From Gemmatimonadota bacterium (GTDB lineage Bacteria > Gemmatimonadota > Gemmatimonadetes > Gemmatimonadales > Gemmatimonadaceae): a stretch of DNA of 64,000 nucleotides. The notes under the pieces are model-generated. The model did not search any database and was not told where the DNA came from. It was given only the letters and a program-made list of their open reading frames with translations. The DNA lies in assembly GCA_028287235.1 (NCBI GenBank), contig JAQBQB010000020.1:248001-312000 (forward strand). The letters are read 5' to 3'. Made by a program: the position numbers and the translations under genes. Shown here one piece after another: positions 52,513-64,000 of the stretch (position 1 is the stretch's first letter; each line of letters begins with the position of its first letter).

Positions 52513-53826
<1,314 letters not shown>

Positions 53827-53846
53827 TATTGAGTCTCCTTACGGTA

Positions 53847-54542
53847 CTAAGGGCGCGTACCCGTCCGACGACGGCGACGCAGCCAAAAGGTTTTTTCGAT
53901 GGTGAGCGGAATGGGCGGGGCCCCGCCGCGCGAGTTGGTCTGCTGATACACGAAGTGCATGCGCTGCACGACGGTGATCCAGGCAGTGACCGTCAGAATT
54001 ATAATGATCACCGCGAGGATCAGCCCGTTCAGACCAAGTCCGAAGAATGCCTGGGGGGCGGAAAGCAGGACGATTCGTTCCGGCCGCTGCATGATGCCGA
54101 CCTTGGCGTCCAGTCCCAGGGCTTCGGCGCGCGCCCGGATGTACGACGTCATGTAGGCGCCGATGAGCCCGAGCAGGCAGACGGCCATCATCGGAACGTT
54201 GTGGTGGCGCGGGTTCAGGGCGTAGAACACCGCGAGACCGGCGAGCAGCGCGCCGTCGGCGACCCGGTCGAGCGTCGAATCCAGGAAGGCACCAAACGTC
54301 GAGCTCTTGTTCGACCGGCGGGCGACCGTGCCGTCGAGCACGTCGAACAACGCGGTAGCTCCCAGAAAAAAGCCTCCCGTGCGAATGTGACCGGTGGCGT
54401 AGATGACTCCGCCGGCGACCGTGCACAGCGTTCCGATGACCGTAATGGTATTCGGATGGACTCCACGCCGGACCAGCCAATTCGCGACCGGATCGATGAC
54501 CCTCAAATATCCGTTTTTGAGCCAGTCCGGGAGAAGCTTCAT
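53847..54542 (-). CDS. CDP-alcohol phosphatidyltransferase, probable phosphatidylinositol-phosphate synthase
   Basis: 231 residues from ATG at 54542. The full CDP-AP motif is present: Asp67, Asp70, Gly71, Ala74, Arg75, Gly84, Asp88 and Asp92, then five further membrane helices. The family joins a CDP-diacylglycerol to an alcohol. Being directly followed by ino1 suggests the acceptor is inositol phosphate, as in actinobacterial PIP synthases; the alternative is glycerol phosphate (PgsA). A basic tail (LRRRRRTG) ends the protein. Confidence 0.88.
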   Translation of the reverse strand: MKLLPDWLKNGYLRVIDPVANWLVRRGVHPNTITVIGTLCTVAGGVIYATGHIRTGGFFLGATALFDVLDGTVARRSNKSSTFGAFLDSTLDRVADGALLAGLAVFYALNPRHHNVPMMAVCLLGLIGAYMTSYIRARAEALGLDAKVGIMQRPERIVLLSAPQAFFGLGLNGLILAVIIIILTVTAWITVVQRMHFVYQQTNSRGGAPPIPLTIEKTFWLRRRRRTGTRP

Positions 54543-54730: not shown

Positions 54731-55066
54731 CTATGGGAGCGTGAAGACGTACGTCCCGTTGAGGGTCACGTTCGCGCGGGAATAGTTGTGCACGCCGTCG
54801 ATCGTCACCGCCTTCAGCGACACCGTCGATCCGGGAGCGAATCCCTGCACCGGGATCGTCACGGAGGCGTTTGCCGGAACCTGGCGGAGAAAGGTGTCCG
54901 TGCCGCCGGAGTTTGCGTACACGTTCACCGCCTGGGCCAAGTTGTTGTTCACCTGCAGCGAGATCTGGGTCTGCTGGGCGGGTGCCGTGCGAACCTCGAC
55001 CTGGCGAGGGCTACATGCCGCGAGGATGCCGAGCGACACGATCAGAAGCAGCCTGCGTGCAATCAT
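54731..55066 (-). CDS. Small exported lipoprotein
   Basis: 111 residues from ATG at 55066. Signal MIARRLLLIVSLGILAAC with lipidated Cys near 18. The mature part is a single beta-rich domain of about 90 residues (QISLQVNNNLAQAVNVYANSGG ... GSTVSLKAVTIDGVHNYSRANVTLNG), an Ig-like impression. No family recognised. Lies alone between hairpins; a gap of 137 bases separates it from the next gene. Confidence 0.75.
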   Translation of the reverse strand: MIARRLLLIVSLGILAACSPRQVEVRTAPAQQTQISLQVNNNLAQAVNVYANSGGTDTFLRQVPANASVTIPVQGFAPGSTVSLKAVTIDGVHNYSRANVTLNGTYVFTLP

Positions 55067-55203: not shown

Positions 55204-56499
55204 TCACCGGTAGATGCGGTAGGGCCGCGCGCCCTTCAAGAATGCGTCGACGTACTGGCGTTGTGCGTCCATGGCCACATCGGGGTCGGTGCCGGCCATG
55301 ATCGCCTGTCGCGCCGCGGTGCTCCCGAAGCGCTCGTCGAAGGCACGGTCCGAGATGCGCAACGAATCGCGATGCGCGCCGACGAGCGCCCAGAGAATTG
55401 CCGCGCTGACGCGTCCCGACTGCACCCGATCGCGGTCGGTGACGTCGATGCGTACGCCGGGGATCCGCATGCCGGCGAACTTCGCGTCGCCGGGATTTTG
55501 CGGCGTGAACGAATCCACCACGAAGCGCACACCGGCGAGCCGGCGCCCGTTCAACGACTCGGCGACGCGCGCCGCGTTCATCCAAGACGCGCCGAATCGC
55601 TGAAATGCGTCGCTCGTTCCCCGCCCCACCGATACGTTCGATCCCTCGAACGCCACGACCGATGGATACGTCAACGCGCTGGTGAGATTGGGCAGGTTCG
55701 GCGACGGGCGCACCCAGGGTAGTCCGGTCTCGTCGAACCACATCGCGCGCCGCCACCCCGCAACAGGCACGACGTGCAGCGGTGCGTGGATGCCGAGCAC
55801 GGCGTTGTAGAAGAGCGCCATCTCGCCCATCGTCATTCCGTGCCGCAGCGGGAACGGGTATAATGCGTACGGCTTCGCTGGCTTTTGCTGCGTGTGCTCA
55901 TCCGCGTTCGACCACGCGGTGTCGAGCATGGGACCATCGACGTGGTCGCCCGTGATCGGATTCGGGCGATCGAGCACGATGATCGGCAGACCCCGGCGCG
56001 CCGCCGCGCGCATCGCGTAGATCATCGACCCCACGTACGTCCACGTCCGAGTGCCGATGTCCTGCAGATCGAAGACGAGTGCGTCGATGTCCCGCAGCAG
56101 GCTGTCCGGCGGCGCGATCGCCGTGACGGTGTAGAGCGAATGCACCGCGAGCCCGCTCCGCGTGTCGATACCGCTCTCGACGCCCTCGCGGTCTTCCGTG
56201 CCGCGGATGCCGTGCTCCGGCGAGAAGAGCCGAACCAGCGTGACGCCGGCCGCGCGCGCGCCGGCGTCGCGCAGCAGCTCGATGTCCGACGTGCCGTGCG
56301 CGTCGACGCCCGTCTGGTTGGTCAGCAGCGCGATGCGCTTGCCGCGGATGAGCGCGAGACTATCATCGAGCAGGACCGAGATGCCCGGACGTACTGCCCC
56401 ACTGGGTTGCGGACGCGGCGTTCGGCCCGCGCAGCCGGCCAGACACATTGCCACCATTCCTCCGATCACCCACGGCCCACGATGCACAACGTGATGCAT
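55204..56499 (-). CDS. namZ: Exo-beta-N-acetylmuramidase NamZ family (DUF1343)
   Basis: 431 residues from ATG at 56499. Lipoprotein signal with VAMCLAGC. The body is the DUF1343 family: GKRIALLTNQTGVDAHGTSDIELL, LFSPEHGIRG, VFDLQDIGTRTWTYVGSMIYAM, DRPNPITG, PFPLRHGMTMGEMALFYN, NLPNLTSALTYPSVVAFEGSNVSVGRGT. In Bacillus NamZ (GH171) removes MurNAc from the non-reducing end of peptidoglycan chains. The open frame runs far upstream, but that part is antisense to the divergent gene and has no similarity. It shares its start region with that gene. Confidence 0.88.
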   Translation of the reverse strand: MHHVVHRGPWVIGGMVAMCLAGCAGRTPRPQPSGAVRPGISVLLDDSLALIRGKRIALLTNQTGVDAHGTSDIELLRDAGARAAGVTLVRLFSPEHGIRGTEDREGVESGIDTRSGLAVHSLYTVTAIAPPDSLLRDIDALVFDLQDIGTRTWTYVGSMIYAMRAAARRGLPIIVLDRPNPITGDHVDGPMLDTAWSNADEHTQQKPAKPYALYPFPLRHGMTMGEMALFYNAVLGIHAPLHVVPVAGWRRAMWFDETGLPWVRPSPNLPNLTSALTYPSVVAFEGSNVSVGRGTSDAFQRFGASWMNAARVAESLNGRRLAGVRFVVDSFTPQNPGDAKFAGMRIPGVRIDVTDRDRVQSGRVSAAILWALVGAHRDSLRISDRAFDERFGSTAARQAIMAGTDPDVAMDAQRQYVDAFLKGARPYRIYR

Positions 56500-57693
56500 G
56501 ACGTTCGATCCTCGATGCTGGCGCTGTTGATTGTGCCGCTGATCGTCGGCTGCCGGCCCGCCGCGGCGGCGAGCGCGAACGCGAGCGCGCAGCCGGAACA
56601 TGACATGGCGATCGCGTCGCGACCACCCCGGTCCGATTCGGCAATCCGCGACTCGCTGCGGCAGATACTGGACCGCGCGCTGCGCGACAGCGCGTTCCCC
56701 GGAGCGATCGCCGTGGTCGGCACGCGCGCACGCGTCATCGGACAGTACGCCGTGGGCCACCTCGACTGGGCGCCGAGCCCCGCCCCGAACGAGCATACGC
56801 TCTGGGATCTCGCGTCGCTCACGAAGGTCGTTGGTCTCACGAGCGGCATCATGCAGCTCGTCGAAAAGGGCGACATTTCTCTCGACGCGCCGCTGCAGCG
56901 CTATTTCCCGAGCTGGACCGGTCCGAACAAAGAGCGTGTCACCATCCGCCATCTGCTGACGCACACCTCTGGGTTGCCGTCGTTCAAGCCGTACGACGAG
57001 ATAACGCACGACCCCGACAGCCTGGCGAAGCTCATGTTCTCGACGCAGCTCGATACGCTGCCGGGCGCGAAGATGGTGTACAGCGACATCGGCGCGTACA
57101 TGCTCGGGCGCACGCTCGAGAAGGTCACGGGGCAGACGCTCGACGCCTACCTCGCCTCGCACGTGTTTCAGCCCGCCGGCATGAGCGAAACGATGTACAA
57201 GCCGCCCGCCTCCCTGCTGCCGCGCATCGCACCCACGGAGATCGATCCGCGCCGCGGCGGTCTCGTGCGCGGCAAGGTGCACGACGAGCGCGCGTACTAT
57301 CTCGGCGGCGTGTCGGCGCACGCCGGCATCTTCAGCACGGCGCACGACCTCACACGCTTCGCGCAGATGTACCTGAACAACGGCGTGATCGACGGCGTGC
57401 GCGTGCTGCCCGCCTCGGGCATCGCGACGTTCACCGTCCGCCAGGTGGCCGATCGCGCACTCGGTTGGCAAAAGCCCGACGGCATGAATTCCGCCGGCCA
57501 TTTCATGTCCCCCGAAGCGTTCGGCCACACGGGATTCACCGGTACGTCGATCTGGATGGATCCAACGAACGACGTGTTCATCATTCTCTTGAGCAACCGC
57601 GTGAACCCGACGCGCGCCAACACGAAGATTGGCCGGGTGCGCGTCGCGCTCGCCGACGCCGTGCTGTCGGCCCTTCCGCGCGTTCAGAAGTAA
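56482..57693 (+). CDS. Serine hydrolase of the beta-lactamase/AmiE family
   Basis: 403 residues from ATG at 56482 (56494 and 56515 also fit). A lipoprotein-like signal ends IVPLIVGC (Cys24). The catalytic Ser-x-x-Lys is SLTK at 112-115, YSD at 200-202, and HTG at 349-351: the serine-type penicillin-recognising fold. Divergent from a namZ homologue, it parallels Bacillus AmiE, a MurNAc-L-Ala amidase encoded in the namZ locus, so I infer a muropeptide amidase. An esterase or D-Ala carboxypeptidase is possible. Confidence 0.85.
   Translation: MHNVMHDVRSSMLALLIVPLIVGCRPAAAASANASAQPEHDMAIASRPPRSDSAIRDSLRQILDRALRDSAFPGAIAVVGTRARVIGQYAVGHLDWAPSPAPNEHTLWDLASLTKVVGLTSGIMQLVEKGDISLDAPLQRYFPSWTGPNKERVTIRHLLTHTSGLPSFKPYDEITHDPDSLAKLMFSTQLDTLPGAKMVYSDIGAYMLGRTLEKVTGQTLDAYLASHVFQPAGMSETMYKPPASLLPRIAPTEIDPRRGGLVRGKVHDERAYYLGGVSAHAGIFSTAHDLTRFAQMYLNNGVIDGVRVLPASGIATFTVRQVADRALGWQKPDGMNSAGHFMSPEAFGHTGFTGTSIWMDPTNDVFIILLSNRVNPTRANTKIGRVRVALADAVLSALPRVQK
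56488..56505. promoter_or_regulatory. Near-perfect 18-bp palindrome spanning both divergent start regions
   Basis: AACGTGATGCATGACGTT at 56488-56505 is symmetric apart from one central-flanking G-G pair. It contains an ATG of the plus-strand gene (56494) and the ATG of the minus-strand namZ (56499). A regulator site, or a chance consequence of overlapping start codons, are both possible. Confidence 0.4.
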
Positions 57694-57718
57694 GACTCCT
57701 CATCACCGTGAGTGACGC

Positions 57719-59575
57719 ATGCACCTGACCGCTATCGATTGGGCGATCGTCGTCGCGTATTTCGCGTTGTCGGCCGGCATCGGACTGGCTTTCGCCAAGA
57801 AGGGCGGCGAGAGTCTCGAGGAATATTTCATCTCGGGGCGCCAGGTCTCGTGGTGGCTCGCCGGCGCCTCGATGGTCGCGACGACCTTCGCGGCCGACAC
57901 GCCGCTCGTCGTCACCGGCATCGTCGCGGCGAACGGCGTTGCCGGCAACTGGCTGTGGTGGAACATGCTGATGAGCGGCATGCTCACCGTGTTCTTCTTC
58001 GCGCGGCTGTGGCGCCGGGCGAACGTGATGACCGACGTGGAGTTCGCCGAGATCCGATACAGCGGCAAGCGCGCCGCCGTCCTCCGCGGCTTTCGCGCCC
58101 TCTATCTCGCCATCCCGATCAACCTCATCATCCTCGGCTGGGTGACGCGGGCGATGATCAAGATCCTCACCATCTCGCTCGGGCTGCACGACGTGCAGAT
58201 CGCGGGATTTTCCGTGTCGGGCCAGGTGATCGCGGTTGGGATCTGCTTCCTCGTCACGATGTCCTACTCGGTGGCCGCCGGCATGTGGGCCGTGCTGTGG
58301 ACCGATCTCGTGCAGTTCGTGATCAAGATGTCCGCGGTGATCATTCTCGCCGTGTACTCCGTGCGCGCCGTGGGAGGCATGGCGAAGCTCAAGGCCGGCG
58401 TCGCCGCGCACTTCGGCAGCGAGGCCGCGGGTCTTTCGGTGCTGCCGGTGAAGTTCACCGGCCACGGCATCGAGGCGTACACGTGGATGCCGCTCCTCGC
58501 GCTCGGCGTATTTCTCTCCGTGCAGTGGTGGGCCGCGTGGTATCCGGGCGCCGAACCGGGCGGCGGGGGCTACGTGGCGCAGCGCATCTTCTCGGCGAAA
58601 ACCGAGCGCGACGGCGTGCTGGCGACGCTCTTCTTCCAGGTGGCGCACTACGCCATTCGCCCGTGGCCGTGGATCATCACCGGGCTCGCGACGATCATGC
58701 TCTACCCGCAGGGCATCGGTCCAACGCACGATCACGAAGCCGGCTACGTCCAGGCGTTCGTCGACCTGCTGCCCACCCCGTGGCGCGGCGTGATGTTGGC
58801 CGGATTCGCCGCGGCCTACATGTCCACCGTGGGAACGCAGCTCAACTGGGGCGCGTCGTACCTGGTCAACGACTTCTATAAGCGTTTCATCAACAAGAAC
58901 GACACGCAGAAGCACTACGTCAAGGTCTCCCGCTGGACGACCATCGGCCTGTTCTTGGCGTCCGCGGTCGTCGCCTGGCAGCTCGATACGGTGCAAGGCG
59001 CGTGGGAATTTCTCCTCGCGCTCGGATCGGGCACCGGGCTGGTGCTCATTCTCCGGTGGTACTGGTGGCGCGTGAACGCGTGGTCGGAGATCGCCGCGAT
59101 GATCATCTCGGGCGTCGTGTCGCTCGCGTCGCATCCGTTCATCGTCGCCTACTATCCCGCGGGCGATCCGCGCGTCATCGCCGTCACCATGCTCGTGACG
59201 GTGGTGCTGAGCACGGCGGTGTGGCTCGCGGTCACGTACCTGACGCCGCCCGAGCCGGACGAGACACTCGATGCCTTCTATCTCCGCGTGCGGCCCGGCG
59301 GACCCGGCTGGGCCCGCGTGTCGGAACGGCTCGGGTTCGGCCGTGAATCGACGCCGGGCGGGGCGCTGGCGTGGACCAACTGGATCGCCGGAATCGTCGC
59401 GGTGTATTCCACACTGTTCGGCATCGGCAAGCTGATCTTTGGTGAGCTGGGATCTGGCTTCTTGCTCCTGCTCGTCGCAGCGGCTGCGTTCGCCTGGATC
59501 GCGAAATCGTTCCAATCGGAGCCGCCGCCGCCCGCGGCCGCCATTCGCCGGGAAGAGCGGGTCGCCGCCGATTGA
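57719..59575 (+). CDS. Sodium:solute symporter family protein (618 aa)
   Basis: 618 residues, about 13-14 membrane helices, of the SSS/SLC5 fold. The N-terminal helices (AIDWAIVVAYFALSAGIGLAF, then GGESLEEYFISGRQVSWW) and the later SPLVVTGIVA-type substrate helix (AADTPLVVTGIVAANGVAGNW) are family hallmarks, as is the GTGLVLILRWYWWR loop. It is a sodium-coupled importer; the substrate is not visible in the sequence. It follows the serine hydrolase by 25 bases, so a muropeptide or amino-sugar substrate is inferred from context. Confidence 0.85.
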   Translation: MHLTAIDWAIVVAYFALSAGIGLAFAKKGGESLEEYFISGRQVSWWLAGASMVATTFAADTPLVVTGIVAANGVAGNWLWWNMLMSGMLTVFFFARLWRRANVMTDVEFAEIRYSGKRAAVLRGFRALYLAIPINLIILGWVTRAMIKILTISLGLHDVQIAGFSVSGQVIAVGICFLVTMSYSVAAGMWAVLWTDLVQFVIKMSAVIILAVYSVRAVGGMAKLKAGVAAHFGSEAAGLSVLPVKFTGHGIEAYTWMPLLALGVFLSVQWWAAWYPGAEPGGGGYVAQRIFSAKTERDGVLATLFFQVAHYAIRPWPWIITGLATIMLYPQGIGPTHDHEAGYVQAFVDLLPTPWRGVMLAGFAAAYMSTVGTQLNWGASYLVNDFYKRFINKNDTQKHYVKVSRWTTIGLFLASAVVAWQLDTVQGAWEFLLALGSGTGLVLILRWYWWRVNAWSEIAAMIISGVVSLASHPFIVAYYPAGDPRVIAVTMLVTVVLSTAVWLAVTYLTPPEPDETLDAFYLRVRPGGPGWARVSERLGFGRESTPGGALAWTNWIAGIVAVYSTLFGIGKLIFGELGSGFLLLLVAAAAFAWIAKSFQSEPPPPAAAIRREERVAAD

Positions 59576-59651
59576 ATCGCCTTCCCGGCGGCGCTATACT
59601 TGTATCCATCGCGGCGATCACTACTTGCCGCCTCAAATGGGGGGTTTCGGA

Positions 59652-60008
59652 ATGAGCACAATGAATCAGCCCGAGGTGATGGTCGTGATCACGCCCAACG
59701 CCTCGACCGAAGTCAAGAAGTTCATGGAAGTCGAGGGTGTCGACCCGGGCAAGGGCGGCCTTCGCGTGAGCGTCCAGCCCGGCGGCTGCAGCGGCTTCAA
59801 GTACGGCCTGCTGATCGAAGACGAAGCGGCCGAGGACGACCTCATCGTGGGCCAGGGCGACTGGCGCGTGTTCGTCGACCCGTTCTCGGCACAATATCTG
59901 AACGGCGTCACCATCGACTATGTCTCGTCGATGCAAGGCTCCGGCTTCACGTTCAAGAACCCGAATTCCACGGGCGGCTGCGGGTGCGGCAGCTCGTTCT
60001 CCGCGTAA
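59652..60008 (+). CDS. erpA: Iron-sulphur cluster insertion/carrier protein (IscA/ErpA type)
   Basis: 118 residues from ATG at 59652; an in-frame ATG 15 bases earlier is an alternative. Cys46 in PGGCSGFKY and Cys110/Cys112 in GGCGCGSSF are the three conserved cluster ligands. A-type carriers pass [2Fe-2S] or [4Fe-4S] to client proteins. It stands 76 bases past the symporter, with GGGG before the start, so it may have its own signals. Its place among sugar-salvage genes looks incidental. Confidence 0.9.
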   Translation: MSTMNQPEVMVVITPNASTEVKKFMEVEGVDPGKGGLRVSVQPGGCSGFKYGLLIEDEAAEDDLIVGQGDWRVFVDPFSAQYLNGVTIDYVSSMQGSGFTFKNPNSTGGCGCGSSFSA

Positions 60009-60029
60009 CACGCCCGCTTCAGGGGTAAC

Positions 60030-61970
60030 ATGGAACGGTCAGTCGCTGGCGCAGGCCGGGACGCCGTCGTGACGGAAACAACAGGGGCCCGCGATTCCAT
60101 GAATCGCGGGCCCTCTCGCGTTTCGCATGCCGCAAACGCGGGCGAGCGAATCCGCACGGTGGTCGTCGAGGATCATGAAGACATCGCGCGACTGGTCGCG
60201 AATCGCATCGCCACGCTCATCCGCGAGCGCAACGCCGCCGGCGAGCATACCGTACTCGGTTTGGCGACGGGCTCGACGCCGATCGGCGTGTACCGCGAGC
60301 TCATTCGCATGCACAAGCAGGAGGGGCTGAGCTTCGCCAGCGTGGTGACGTTCAATCTCGACGAGTACTACCCGATGCCGAAGGACAGCATCCACTCCTA
60401 CCATCGGTTCATGTGGGAGAACCTGTTCTCGCACATCGACATCGATCCGGAAAACGTGCACATCCCGCCGGGCGACGTGCCGCGCACGGAGATCGACGAA
60501 GCCGCCGATCGGTACGAAGGCGCCATCGCGCGCGCCGGAGGCATCGACTTCCAGATCCTCGGCATCGGCAAGACGGGACACATCGGGTTCAACGAGCCGG
60601 GATCGGGCGCCGAGAGCCGCACGCGACTCGTGACGCTGGATGCCGTGACGCGCGCCGACGCCGCCTCCGATTTCTTCGGCGAGGAATACGTTCCGCGCGA
60701 AGCCGTCACCATGGGCGTGGCCACGATTCTCGACGCGCGTGAGATTGCGATCATCGCGACCGGCGAGCACAAGTCCACCATCGTCAAGCGCGCCGTGGAG
60801 GGAGAGATCGACGTCGAAGTCGCGGCGACGTTCCTGCAACGCCATCCCAACACGACGTTCTACGTCGACCGGGCCGCGGCCGCGGAGCTCACGCGCATCA
60901 AGACGCCGTGGCTCATCGACCAGGTGCAGTGGACGCAGAGCCTCATCATCCGCGCGGTGATCTGGCTGTCGCAGCAGACGGGCAAGGCGATTCTCAAGCT
61001 CACGCAGCGCGACTACGCCGACGCGCACATGTCGTCGCTCGTCGCAAAGTTCGGCTCGCCCGGCGAAGTGAACGGCAAGGTCTTCAACATGTTGGGCGCC
61101 AAGATTCGCGGGAAGTCGAAGCTCGCGGTGGGCAAGAAGATCATCTGCTTCTCGCCGCACCCCGACGACGACGTGATCTCGATGGGCGGCATCCTGCGCA
61201 AGCTCGTCGAGAACGACAACGACATCGTCGTGGCGTACATGACGAGCGGCAACATCGCGGTGTTCGACCACGACGTGCGCCGCTATGTCGACTTCCTGGA
61301 GCGCATGGCCGACGAGGGCCGCATCGAGCGCGACCGCGTCGATCCGCTGGCGGCAAAGGTGCAAGAGTGTCTCGAGCGAAAGACGCCGGGCGAAGTGGAC
61401 ATCCCCGAAGTGCAGGACATCAAGCGCATCATTCGCGAAGCCGAGGCGGTGAGCGGCATCGAGACGCTCGGTCTGCCGCGCAGCGCGGCGCGCTTTCTCA
61501 ACCTCCCCTTCTATCAGACGGGCAAGGTGCGGAAGGATCCGATCGGTCCGCCGGACGTCGCGATCGTGCGCCAACTGCTCGAGGACGTTCGTCCCGATCA
61601 GATCTTCGTCGCCGGCGATCTGTCCGATCCGCACGGCACGCATCGCATGTGCAAAGAGGCAATCGACGGCGCGCTGGCGGAGATGAAGGACACGCCGCGC
61701 CCGGAAGTCTGGCTCTATCGCGGCGCCTGGCAGGAGTGGCCGGTGCACGAAGCGCACTTCCTCGTGCCCCTGTCACAAGAGGAGCTGCGCCTCAAGATCC
61801 AGGCGATCTTCAAGCATCAGTCGCAGAAGGACTCGGCTCCTTTCCCGGGCGGCTATGACGACCGTGAGTTCTGGCAGCGCGTCGAAGCACGCAACAAGGG
61901 CACGGCGGCGGAGCTCGACCGACTCGGTCTCGCCGAGTACTTCGCGATGGAAGCGTATGTGGTGGAATGA
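60030..61970 (+). CDS. nagB: Glucosamine-6-phosphate deaminase fused to a PIG-L/LmbE-type deacetylase
   Basis: 646 residues from ATG at 60030 (AGGGG 5 bases upstream); ATG at 60099 and GTG at 60159 are alternatives. NagB domain, residues 40-310: LGLATGSTPIGVYRE, NLDEYYP with the catalytic Asp, ILGIGKTGHIGFNEPG, and the lid helix. PIG-L domain from about 370: SPHPDDDVISMGG with the metal His and Asp, and SDPHGTHRMCKEA later. NagB turns GlcN-6-P into fructose-6-P and ammonia; the fused domain probably removes the acetyl group of GlcNAc-6-P or related sugars. The architecture is known in Bacteroidetes. Confidence 0.9.
   Translation: MERSVAGAGRDAVVTETTGARDSMNRGPSRVSHAANAGERIRTVVVEDHEDIARLVANRIATLIRERNAAGEHTVLGLATGSTPIGVYRELIRMHKQEGLSFASVVTFNLDEYYPMPKDSIHSYHRFMWENLFSHIDIDPENVHIPPGDVPRTEIDEAADRYEGAIARAGGIDFQILGIGKTGHIGFNEPGSGAESRTRLVTLDAVTRADAASDFFGEEYVPREAVTMGVATILDAREIAIIATGEHKSTIVKRAVEGEIDVEVAATFLQRHPNTTFYVDRAAAAELTRIKTPWLIDQVQWTQSLIIRAVIWLSQQTGKAILKLTQRDYADAHMSSLVAKFGSPGEVNGKVFNMLGAKIRGKSKLAVGKKIICFSPHPDDDVISMGGILRKLVENDNDIVVAYMTSGNIAVFDHDVRRYVDFLERMADEGRIERDRVDPLAAKVQECLERKTPGEVDIPEVQDIKRIIREAEAVSGIETLGLPRSAARFLNLPFYQTGKVRKDPIGPPDVAIVRQLLEDVRPDQIFVAGDLSDPHGTHRMCKEAIDGALAEMKDTPRPEVWLYRGAWQEWPVHEAHFLVPLSQEELRLKIQAIFKHQSQKDSAPFPGGYDDREFWQRVEARNKGTAAELDRLGLAEYFAMEAYVVE
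60085..60113. other. Perfect 13-bp stem-loop at the nagB 5' end
   Basis: GGGCCCGCGATTC (60085-60097) pairs with GAATCGCGGGCCC (60101-60113); the loop is CAT and its last two bases with the next G make an in-frame ATG (60099). It lies 77 bases past the erpA stop, inside the first codons of the longest nagB frame. Downstream is TCTCGCGTTTCG, a poor T-tract. It may be an erpA terminator or a structure affecting nagB translation. Confidence 0.6.
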
Positions 61971-62046
61971 TGTCATCCTGAGGGAGCATCGCGACCGAAG
62001 GATCGGCCCGCTCGCAGCGCGATCCTTCGCTGCGCTCAGGATGACA
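61971..62046. repeat. Interspersed palindromic repeat, copy 3
   Basis: Starts on the base after the nagB stop with TGTCATCCTGAGGGAGCATC, carries GAAGGATC at 62008 area and the inverted GATCCTTCGCTGCGCTCAGG arm, and ends GATGACA at 62046. The GTG of the next gene is 2 bases later, so the element fills the whole intergenic gap and its CAGGAT supplies the only Shine-Dalgarno-like bases. Confidence 0.88.
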
Positions 62047-62048
62047 TC

Positions 62049-63584
62049 GTGAGAGGCCTGAACGGCCTCGATTTCGTCGTCATCGTTGCATATCTGGTCG
62101 GCATCACGGCGCTCGGCATGTGGGTGGGCCGGCGCCAGCGCGACGCCAAGGATTATTTCGTCGCCGATCGCGAGATCCCGTGGTGGGCAGTCATGTTCTC
62201 GATCGTCGCGAGCGAGACGAGCGCGCTGACGTTCATCAGCATTCCAGGGCTCGCCTACATCGGGAACCTCGGCTTCCTGGAGATCGCGGCGGGATACCTG
62301 CTGGGACGTATCGCGCTCGCGTTCACGCTGCTCCCCAAGTACTACGAGGGAAACCTCGTCACCGCCTACGCGCTGCTCGAGAAGCGGTTCGGCCTCGCCA
62401 CACGGCGCTTCACGTCGATCGTGTTCATGGCCACGCGCGGCATGGCGGACTCGGTGCGCGTGTTCGCGACGGCGGTGCCGATCGCGTTGATCATCGGTCC
62501 GCTGCTGCCGAAGGCAGCGGTCATGCCCGTCGCCGTCTTGGTGCTCGGAACGCTCACCGTGCTGTACACCATCAAGGGCGGCATGCGCGCGGTGATCTGG
62601 ACGGAGATCGTGCAGGCCTCCGTGTATCTCATCGGCGGGCTCTCAGCGCTGCTGATCGCGGTCCATCTCACGCCGGGCGGGTGGGGCACGATCATTCCCG
62701 CGGCCTCGGCGGCGGGAAAACTGAAAGTCATCAGCTGGTACACGGGCTTCGATCAGCCGCATACCATCTACGCCGGGTTGATCGGCGGCGCGTTTCTTTC
62801 CATGGCCTCGCACGGCGCCGACCAGCTGATCGTGCAACGCCTCATGTCCGCGCGCTCGCTCAAGGGCGCGCAGGCGGCGGTGATCGGCAGTGGCATCGCG
62901 GTGATCATCCAGTTCACGCTCTTTCTGATGCTCGGCATTACGCTCTGGGCGTTCTACGGCGGCCAGCAGTTCCCCATTCCCGACTCGATCTTCCCCACGT
63001 TCATCGTCGACCACATGCCGCACGGCCTCGTGGGGTTGCTGCTCGCCGCGGTGCTCGCGGCCACGATGAGCACGCACTCCGGCGCGATCAACTCGCTGGC
63101 GGCGGCGTCGACGCACGACATCTATCTGCCGCTCACCGGGCGCTCGCCCGACGATCCGAAAACGCTGAAGATCGGACGCATCTTCGCGCTGATCTGGGGC
63201 ATCGCGCTCACCGGGGGCGCCCTGCTCTTTCCGCAGAACGCCAAGACTCCCGTGGTCGTGGTGGCGCTCTCGATCGCGTCGTTTACCTACGGGGCCCTGC
63301 TCGGCGGCTTCTTCCTCGCTATTTTCTGGCGACGGGCCATTCAGCGCGACGCGATCCTCGGCATGTCGGTCGGCATTCTGGTCATGAGTCTCATCGTCTT
63401 CGCCAAGCAGATCAGTGCCGCCGTTCCGGCGCTGGCCGGCGCGCTGCAGCCGGTGTCGACGATCGCATACCCCTGGTACGTCTTGATCGGGACGACCATC
63501 ACTCTCTCCGTGGGCATTCTCTCCTCGCTGACGCACGGCGCTCCACCCGTTCCAGCCGAGCCGGCGCGAGTTGCAACGACATGA
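62049..63584 (+). CDS. Sodium:solute symporter family protein (511 aa)
   Basis: 511 residues from GTG at 62049. About 13 membrane helices; N-terminal GLNGLDFVVIVAYLVGITALGMWVGRRQRDAKDYFVADREIPWW and the sodium-site helix ASETSALTFISIPGLAYIGNLGFL are SSS hallmarks. Lying immediately upstream of, and overlapping, a BadF-type amino-sugar kinase gene, it resembles the MurT-MurK pair of Tannerella forsythia, in which an SSS-type protein imports MurNAc. Substrate inferred from this context. Confidence 0.87.
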   Translation: MRGLNGLDFVVIVAYLVGITALGMWVGRRQRDAKDYFVADREIPWWAVMFSIVASETSALTFISIPGLAYIGNLGFLEIAAGYLLGRIALAFTLLPKYYEGNLVTAYALLEKRFGLATRRFTSIVFMATRGMADSVRVFATAVPIALIIGPLLPKAAVMPVAVLVLGTLTVLYTIKGGMRAVIWTEIVQASVYLIGGLSALLIAVHLTPGGWGTIIPAASAAGKLKVISWYTGFDQPHTIYAGLIGGAFLSMASHGADQLIVQRLMSARSLKGAQAAVIGSGIAVIIQFTLFLMLGITLWAFYGGQQFPIPDSIFPTFIVDHMPHGLVGLLLAAVLAATMSTHSGAINSLAAASTHDIYLPLTGRSPDDPKTLKIGRIFALIWGIALTGGALLFPQNAKTPVVVVALSIASFTYGALLGGFFLAIFWRRAIQRDAILGMSVGILVMSLIVFAKQISAAVPALAGALQPVSTIAYPWYVLIGTTITLSVGILSSLTHGAPPVPAEPARVATT

Positions 63585-64000
63585 CTTTCATCGTAATTGG
63601 AATCGACGGCGGCGGATCGAAGACGCACGCCATGGTCGCCGACGAACAGGGCCGCACGATCGCCGAAACGGTCGGACCGGGCAGCGCCGTGCGTCCCGGC
63701 CAGGCCGAGCATTCGGCGAACGTCATCTCCGACGTCGTGCGCGACGCGCTGGCGTCGTGCGAGATGACCCACGTGACGCCGCGCGCCCTGTGCGTGGGTG
63801 TCGCCGGCGCGGGGCGCGAGACGGAGCGCCAGGAGCTCTGGCAGGCCCTCGTGAGCCGCGATCTCGCCTCGGAGCTCGTGATCCACTCCGACTTCAGCAT
63901 CGCGCTCGACGACGCCTTTGGCGACGGCCCGGGCGTATTGCTGATCGCCGGCACCGGATCGGTCGCCTTTGGGCGCAGTCCGGCCGGCGCGACGTCGCGC
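63581..64000 (+). CDS. BadF/BadG-type amino-sugar kinase, N-terminal part (cut by window edge)
   Basis: ATG at 63581 overlaps the symporter stop (ATGA). 140 codons are visible. GIDGGGSKTHAMVADE at 7-22 is the ASKHA phosphate-1 loop; LCVGVAGAGRE near 75 and LLIAGTGSVAFG near 127 are the adenosine/phosphate-2 motifs of the N-acetylglucosamine/MurNAc kinase (NagK/MurK-like) family. It would phosphorylate an imported amino sugar. The C-terminal part is outside the window, so the exact sugar cannot be told. Confidence 0.88.
   Translation, partial: MTFIVIGIDGGGSKTHAMVADEQGRTIAETVGPGSAVRPGQAEHSANVISDVVRDALASCEMTHVTPRALCVGVAGAGRETERQELWQALVSRDLASELVIHSDFSIALDDAFGDGPGVLLIAGTGSVAFGRSPAGATSR

Follow-up and report, generated by a model that had tools for sequence, protein, structure and literature searches.

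The question raised by this locus is whether a block of about 9 kb in a Gemmatimonadota genome serves the salvage of amino sugars from peptidoglycan, and how GlcNAc-6-phosphate would then be deacetylated in a phylum that is widespread in soil but poorly represented in culture, and in which MurQ is present in all of the 65 genomes sampled and NagA in none. The window analysed is a stretch of 64,000 nucleotides (bases 248001–312000 of contig C26) from a genome of 5.73 Mb, whose closest relatives, judged by the fusion protein described below, are Gemmatimonadaceae MAGs with 80–85% identity. The evidence favours a locus for the salvage of MurNAc (and GlcNAc), and a likely substitute for NagA in the PIG-L half of the fusion.

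A sequence-only reading of the window had placed a NamZ homologue, a divergent AmiE-like hydrolase, two SSS symporters, a NagB-PIG-L fusion and a BadF-type kinase within 9 kb, and all of these family matches were confirmed (Table 1). The open reading frame 55204–57528 is an over-extended frame, within which the NamZ gene occupies the shorter interval listed, and an IscA/ErpA-like gene absent from that reading lies within the row. The kinase gene ends 513 bp beyond the window edge, and its start overlaps the SSS2 gene in an ATGA. The six genes on the plus strand are separated by 21–85 bp or share 4 bp with their neighbour, an arrangement suggestive of a single operon. The start codons of the divergent NamZ and AmiE-like genes (56482–56499) overlap or are no more than about 6 bp apart, so that each promoter would lie inside the other gene; the gap is also near zero in loci L027 and L028.

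Table 1. Genes of the putative amino-sugar salvage block (window coordinates; alternative starts in brackets)
Feature	Coordinates	Strand	Family match or domain
NamZ-like exo-beta-N-acetylmuramidase (former DUF1343), putative; predicted lipoprotein	55204..56499 (or 56487)	-	NamZ_N, NamZ_C
AmiE/PBP4B-like serine hydrolase; predicted lipoprotein; SLTK motif	56482 (or 56494)..57693	+	PF00144
SSS symporter 1 (SSS1), 618 aa; accessory	57719..59575	+	PF00474, 111 bits
IscA/ErpA-like A-type Fe-S carrier	59661..60008	+	TIGR00049, 117 bits (above cut-off)
NagB-PIG-L fusion	60030..61970	+	NF002557, 909 bits
SSS symporter 2 (SSS2), 511 aa	62049..63584	+	PF00474, 137 bits
BadF-type sugar kinase, 310 aa	63581..64513 (end = C26:312513; L003:11581-12513)	+	PF01869, 135 bits

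A short way to the left of the block are genes for a myo-inositol-1-phosphate synthase and a CDP-alcohol phosphatidyltransferase (52513–54540, minus strand), a pair that suggests inositol phospholipid synthesis; of 29 loci compared, 23 retain the synthase next to the block. Between the phosphatidyltransferase and NamZ there is a small predicted lipoprotein (MIARRLLLIVSLGILAACS..., approximately 54731–55063, minus strand), and a similar one is in the same place in locus L122.

Both hydrolases are predicted to be lipoproteins, NamZ on the strength of a CLAGC lipobox read by eye. The NamZ-like protein scores 224 bits to NamZ_N and 118 bits to NamZ_C, against curated cut-offs of 26.9 and 25, and it matches PDB entry 4k05 (E 1.6e-58); we regard it as a putative exo-beta-N-acetylmuramidase that would release terminal MurNAc. 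A second NamZ is encoded on contig C28 of the same genome. The AmiE-like label stands at the family level, with a 214-bit match to the beta-lactamase fold family and an SxxK motif; the top NCBIfam model is PBP4B (156 bits, under its cut-off of 385), and the sole PDB match at E <1e-20 is an esterase.

The best solved relatives of the kinase are the MurNAc/GlcNAc kinase 8zo3 (E 7e-36), the probable GlcNAc kinase 1zc6, an archaeal hexokinase and human NAGK, and the closest are amino-sugar kinases (8zo3, 1zc6 and NAGK); the Tannerella MurK/K1058 structures are far weaker matches (E ~5e-5 or weaker). Its only NCBIfam match is to NagK_SO3507 (NF046058), at 115 bits with a cut-off of 370, and it is therefore not a member of that equivalog. 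The selectivity of MurK has been linked to small residues at positions 133–135 and 94, with no bulky Glu/His in the 133–136 region, and specificity for MurNAc or GlcNAc is not decidable from sequence alone (PMC10465942); when our kinase is aligned to NAGK, the 133–136 region corresponds to CGGWG and position 94 to Ser, a combination that MurNAc as substrate would allow. The protein is best described as a putative MurNAc/GlcNAc kinase, and we rejected its candidacy as a BcrA/BadF activator. A broader form of that alternative, in which neither the kinase nor SSS2 acts on these sugars and their substrate is an unrelated one, as for the BadF/BcrA ATPases of benzoyl-CoA reduction, has in its favour that the Pfam family is named after these activators; however, among solved structures the protein is most similar to MurNAc/GlcNAc kinases and NAGK, and the much higher-scoring PF01869 proteins (up to 271 bits), presumably true BcrAD, form separate multi-gene sets in other genomes of the sample, with none in this one. 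We regard it as very improbable, and the sequence-only reading, in preferring an amino-sugar kinase of the MurK/NagK kind to a benzoyl-CoA reductase activator, appears to have been correct.

SSS2 has as its nearest solved structure the sialic acid symporter SiaT (5nv9, E 1.8e-43), in which Ser60 and Thr63 contact the carboxylate of the sugar (PMC5931594). These two positions are kept in 47 of 47 SSS2 sequences, across which the Na2-site positions are also conserved. The position of SiaT Thr58 is always Glu, and Arg135 is unaligned, with two invariant arginines in TM3 three to four residues (about one helical turn) away. As weak evidence, the pattern would suit an acidic amino sugar, MurNAc for example; SSS2 is a candidate importer of MurNAc and perhaps also of GlcNAc. 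SSS1 has Ala at SiaT position 60.

Conservation of the block was assessed in 29 Gemmatimonadota-like loci with enough flanking sequence. The partners are retained to different extents (NamZ in 21 loci, AmiE in 25, IscA, SSS2 and the kinase in 24 each, and SSS1 in seven), and all five core partners (NamZ, AmiE, IscA, SSS2 and the kinase) are present in one layout in 20 of the 29. The strands are constant and the block recurs in relatives down to ~55–60% identity, which is more than expected by chance. We note that the IscA/ErpA-like carrier, found within the sugar row in 24 of the 29 loci, has no obvious tie to amino-sugar metabolism.

The NamZ family is present in all 65 genomes and the kinase family in 64, and in 47 of these 64 no more than 12 kb separates the kinase from NamZ, a lower bound because of contig ends. 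The association holds where the fusion is absent (10 of 11 genomes) or encoded elsewhere (19 of 23). Five fusion-less genomes were read directly, and each retains the IscA-SSS2-kinase row, complete but for the fusion; NamZ is beside it in four of the five and AmiE in four of the five (both in G129, G004 and G073, only NamZ in G191 and only AmiE in G024). The constant core is thus composed of the hydrolases, the symporter and the kinase, with the fusion a common addition, and the proximity of kinase and NamZ, with or without the fusion, points to a probable role of this core in handling MurNAc. These observations bear on a reading in which the locus serves salvage of GlcNAc from chitin or fungal walls, with the kinase and symporters acting on GlcNAc, the fusion finishing GlcNAc-6-phosphate, and NamZ and AmiE simply sharing a regulon or a place. 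The chemistry of the fusion is that of GlcNAc catabolism, the kinase's only NCBIfam match is a GlcNAc kinase model, and of the 53 genomes that have both kinase and fusion, 30 have them no more than 6 kb apart (again a lower bound because of contig ends). However, the kinase is usually near NamZ even in genomes where the fusion is missing or encoded elsewhere, MurQ is universal in the sample, and we think this reading unlikely. A dual MurNAc/GlcNAc kinase would reconcile it with the MurNAc reading.

The sequence-only reading expected murQ, nagA or nagZ just past position 64000 and named an RpiR/LacI-type regulator as a further gene to look for, and none of these is seen, by reading and gene calls, in the next ~23 kb to the contig end. 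Immediately 3′ of the kinase, on the opposite strand, is the large subunit of a molybdopterin oxidoreductase (Mo-hydroxylase), identified by profile. The genes that follow were assigned by reading, as its small subunit, a symporter of the dicarboxylate type, a permease of the APC type and an H+-pumping pyrophosphatase (H+-PPase). The murQ gene is elsewhere in the genome, at C19:32954–33826 (TIGR00274, above cut-off), in an operon with an AnmK gene (341 bits) with which it shares 4 bp, and NagZ-like GH3 genes with the motif KHFPGHGDT are on contigs C27 and C15; a profile search of this genome found no nagA. One of the NagZ-like genes (L123; G000:C27, ~137210–138202) directly follows the gene of a further serine hydrolase with the beta-lactamase fold, and the two may be a second pair for wall degradation. 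The position of murQ and nagZ outside the cluster argues against salvage as the role of the locus; the families encoded, a kinase of the MurK/NagK kind, and MurQ, AnmK and NagZ-like GH3 proteins in the same genome argue for it, as had been proposed.

The NagB-PIG-L fusion carries a GlcN6P deaminase (NagB) domain at approximately residues 41–293 and an LmbE/PIG-L deacetylase domain at approximately 367–646, and its score to NF002557 is far above the cut-off of 384 bits, covering profile positions 21–648 of 653. In an AlphaFold model (48 sequences; mean pLDDT 86.7, pTM 0.77), the NagB domain matches 2bkv (Z 38.6), and the PIG-L domain matches BshB (Z 22.2), the diacetylchitobiose deacetylase Dac (~20) and MshB (17). 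Similarity of fold alone does not show a function, but these structural relatives are deacetylases of GlcNAc conjugates. The PIG-L motifs HPDD(D) and DPHGTH are invariant in 48 fusion sequences, as are two residues of the NagB half that we take to correspond to His143 and Glu148 of E. coli NagB.

Two observations across the phylum point to the PIG-L half as the GlcNAc-6-phosphate deacetylase: MurQ is found in 65 of 65 genomes, and in profile searches NagA exceeds its cut-off in none of them (best 39 bits versus 226). We therefore infer that this half likely replaces NagA, and the fold shared with BshB and Dac and the pattern in Bacteroidota agree. NagA is present in seven of 39 fusion-bearing Bacteroidota genomes versus eight of 11 with NagB only (Fisher p = 0.001, with phylogeny ignored and the NagB-only group chosen after the scores were known). 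Within the Gemmatimonadota NagA is missing with or without the fusion, so that the pattern inside the phylum cannot test replacement. In at least one Bacteroidota genome, G269, the fusion adjoins nagA, an argument against strict replacement. Two further points count against the reading. Eleven of the 65 Gemmatimonadota genomes have the kinase, NamZ and MurQ with neither the fusion nor NagA; these include G004, G073, G129, G191 and others (L117–L121), and in the four named the NagB portion of NF002557 is unmatched too. Further PIG-L proteins are encoded in the genome studied here. Solitary copies of the fusion, seen in Gemmatimonadales and Planctomycetota, lie in diverse surroundings that share no theme, and a gene downstream of one of them (L087), guessed to be NagX-like, has no Pfam match. 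Some Bacteroidota (e.g. G220:C25 and G236:C19) encode ~790-aa proteins matched by NF002557 only at 141–436 and 423–610, an apparently different architecture. Searches of the open-access literature for a function of the fusion, including PIG-L/LmbE with GlcN6P deaminase and Gemmatimonas with GlcNAc, returned no paper on what the fusion does.

It is also conceivable that the PIG-L half acts on another GlcNAc conjugate such as GlcNAc-inositol and not on GlcNAc-6-phosphate, since PIG-L and MshB relatives act on GlcNAc-inositols, and the inositol-related pair flanks this block, its synthase recurring in most of the loci. However, this half is joined to a GlcN6P deaminase, and its gene belongs to an operon-like row that includes a sugar kinase; in structure it matches BshB and Dac more closely than MshB. 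The inositol genes are on the opposite strand, on the far side of NamZ, and the fusion is also found in many other genomic settings. We consider this improbable, more so than GlcNAc salvage, and retain GlcNAc-6-phosphate as the likely substrate.

A pathway for MurNAc salvage can be drawn from these components, in which every substrate, the sequence of steps and the location of the three hydrolases outside the cytoplasm are as we infer them. There, NagZ-like GH3 proteins encoded elsewhere and NamZ would release sugars one at a time from fragments of peptidoglycan, while the AmiE-like hydrolase would take off the peptide. The free sugar would enter together with Na+ through SSS2, with SSS1 as a helper, and the kinase would form MurNAc-6-phosphate (or GlcNAc-6-phosphate). 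MurQ would convert MurNAc-6-phosphate to GlcNAc-6-phosphate and D-lactate, the PIG-L half would do the work of NagA by removing acetate, and the NagB half would convert GlcN-6-phosphate to fructose-6-phosphate and ammonia.

The locus is real and conserved, a role in cell-wall sugar salvage is plausible, and the substrates assigned are putative; taken together, we believe that it is probably a MurNAc (and GlcNAc) salvage locus. More tentatively, and with rather more doubt than confidence, we propose that in much of the Gemmatimonadota and part of the Bacteroidota a single polypeptide carries GlcNAc-6-phosphate to fructose-6-phosphate, with its PIG-L domain an unrelated replacement for NagA, and that SSS2 is a MurNAc importer of the SSS family. 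The interest lies in the phylum-wide lack of NagA and its likely PIG-L substitute. If the PIG-L half is the missing deacetylase, a gap in amino-sugar metabolism across the phylum is closed, and a widespread protein named only 'deaminase-like' acquires a function; the predictions for the symporter and kinase are testable in E. coli.

Comparison with known systems shows both likenesses and differences. The NCBIfam model that the fusion matches over its full length (NF002557; PRK02122, glucosamine-6-phosphate deaminase-like protein) states no function for the PIG-L half. The Shewanella-type GlcNAc kinase is of the same superfamily as ours, but no NagP, NagX or NagA partner was found in the cluster here. 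In Tannerella forsythia the system is murT-murK-murQ (PMC10465942, PMC9007349), and TfMurT is distantly related to NagX, an HGSNAT-like protein (PMC9007349). The Tannerella MurT-MurK pair had been cited as a precedent with an SSS-type transporter; the kinase part of this holds, at the level of the superfamily, but the transporter part does not, since TfMurT is described in the papers as NagX-like or as a novel family, in contrast to the SSF symporters here. The murQ gene is not adjacent here and our kinase is nearer to 8zo3 than to the Tannerella structures; shared between the two are non-PTS import, a same-superfamily kinase followed by MurQ, and the presence of NamZ in both organisms.

The ybbC gene of Bacillus is presumably namZ. 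The Bacillus subtilis MurNAc recycling cluster is murQ-murR-murP-amiE-nagZ-ybbC (PMC5061867), and the statement that NamZ and AmiE are encoded together in Bacillus is thus borne out. The cluster here is without a PTS gene (MurP), a regulator, murQ or nagZ, the latter two being elsewhere in the genome. The suggestion that the locus combines the Bacillus and Tannerella designs holds for NamZ with, at the family level, an AmiE-type hydrolase, and fails for the SSS transporter, which is not that of Tannerella. The likeness to Bacillus consists of NamZ with an AmiE-type serine hydrolase, and MurQ and a NagZ-like GH3 in the genome, and the place of the PTS is taken here by SSS symporters together with an ATP-dependent kinase.
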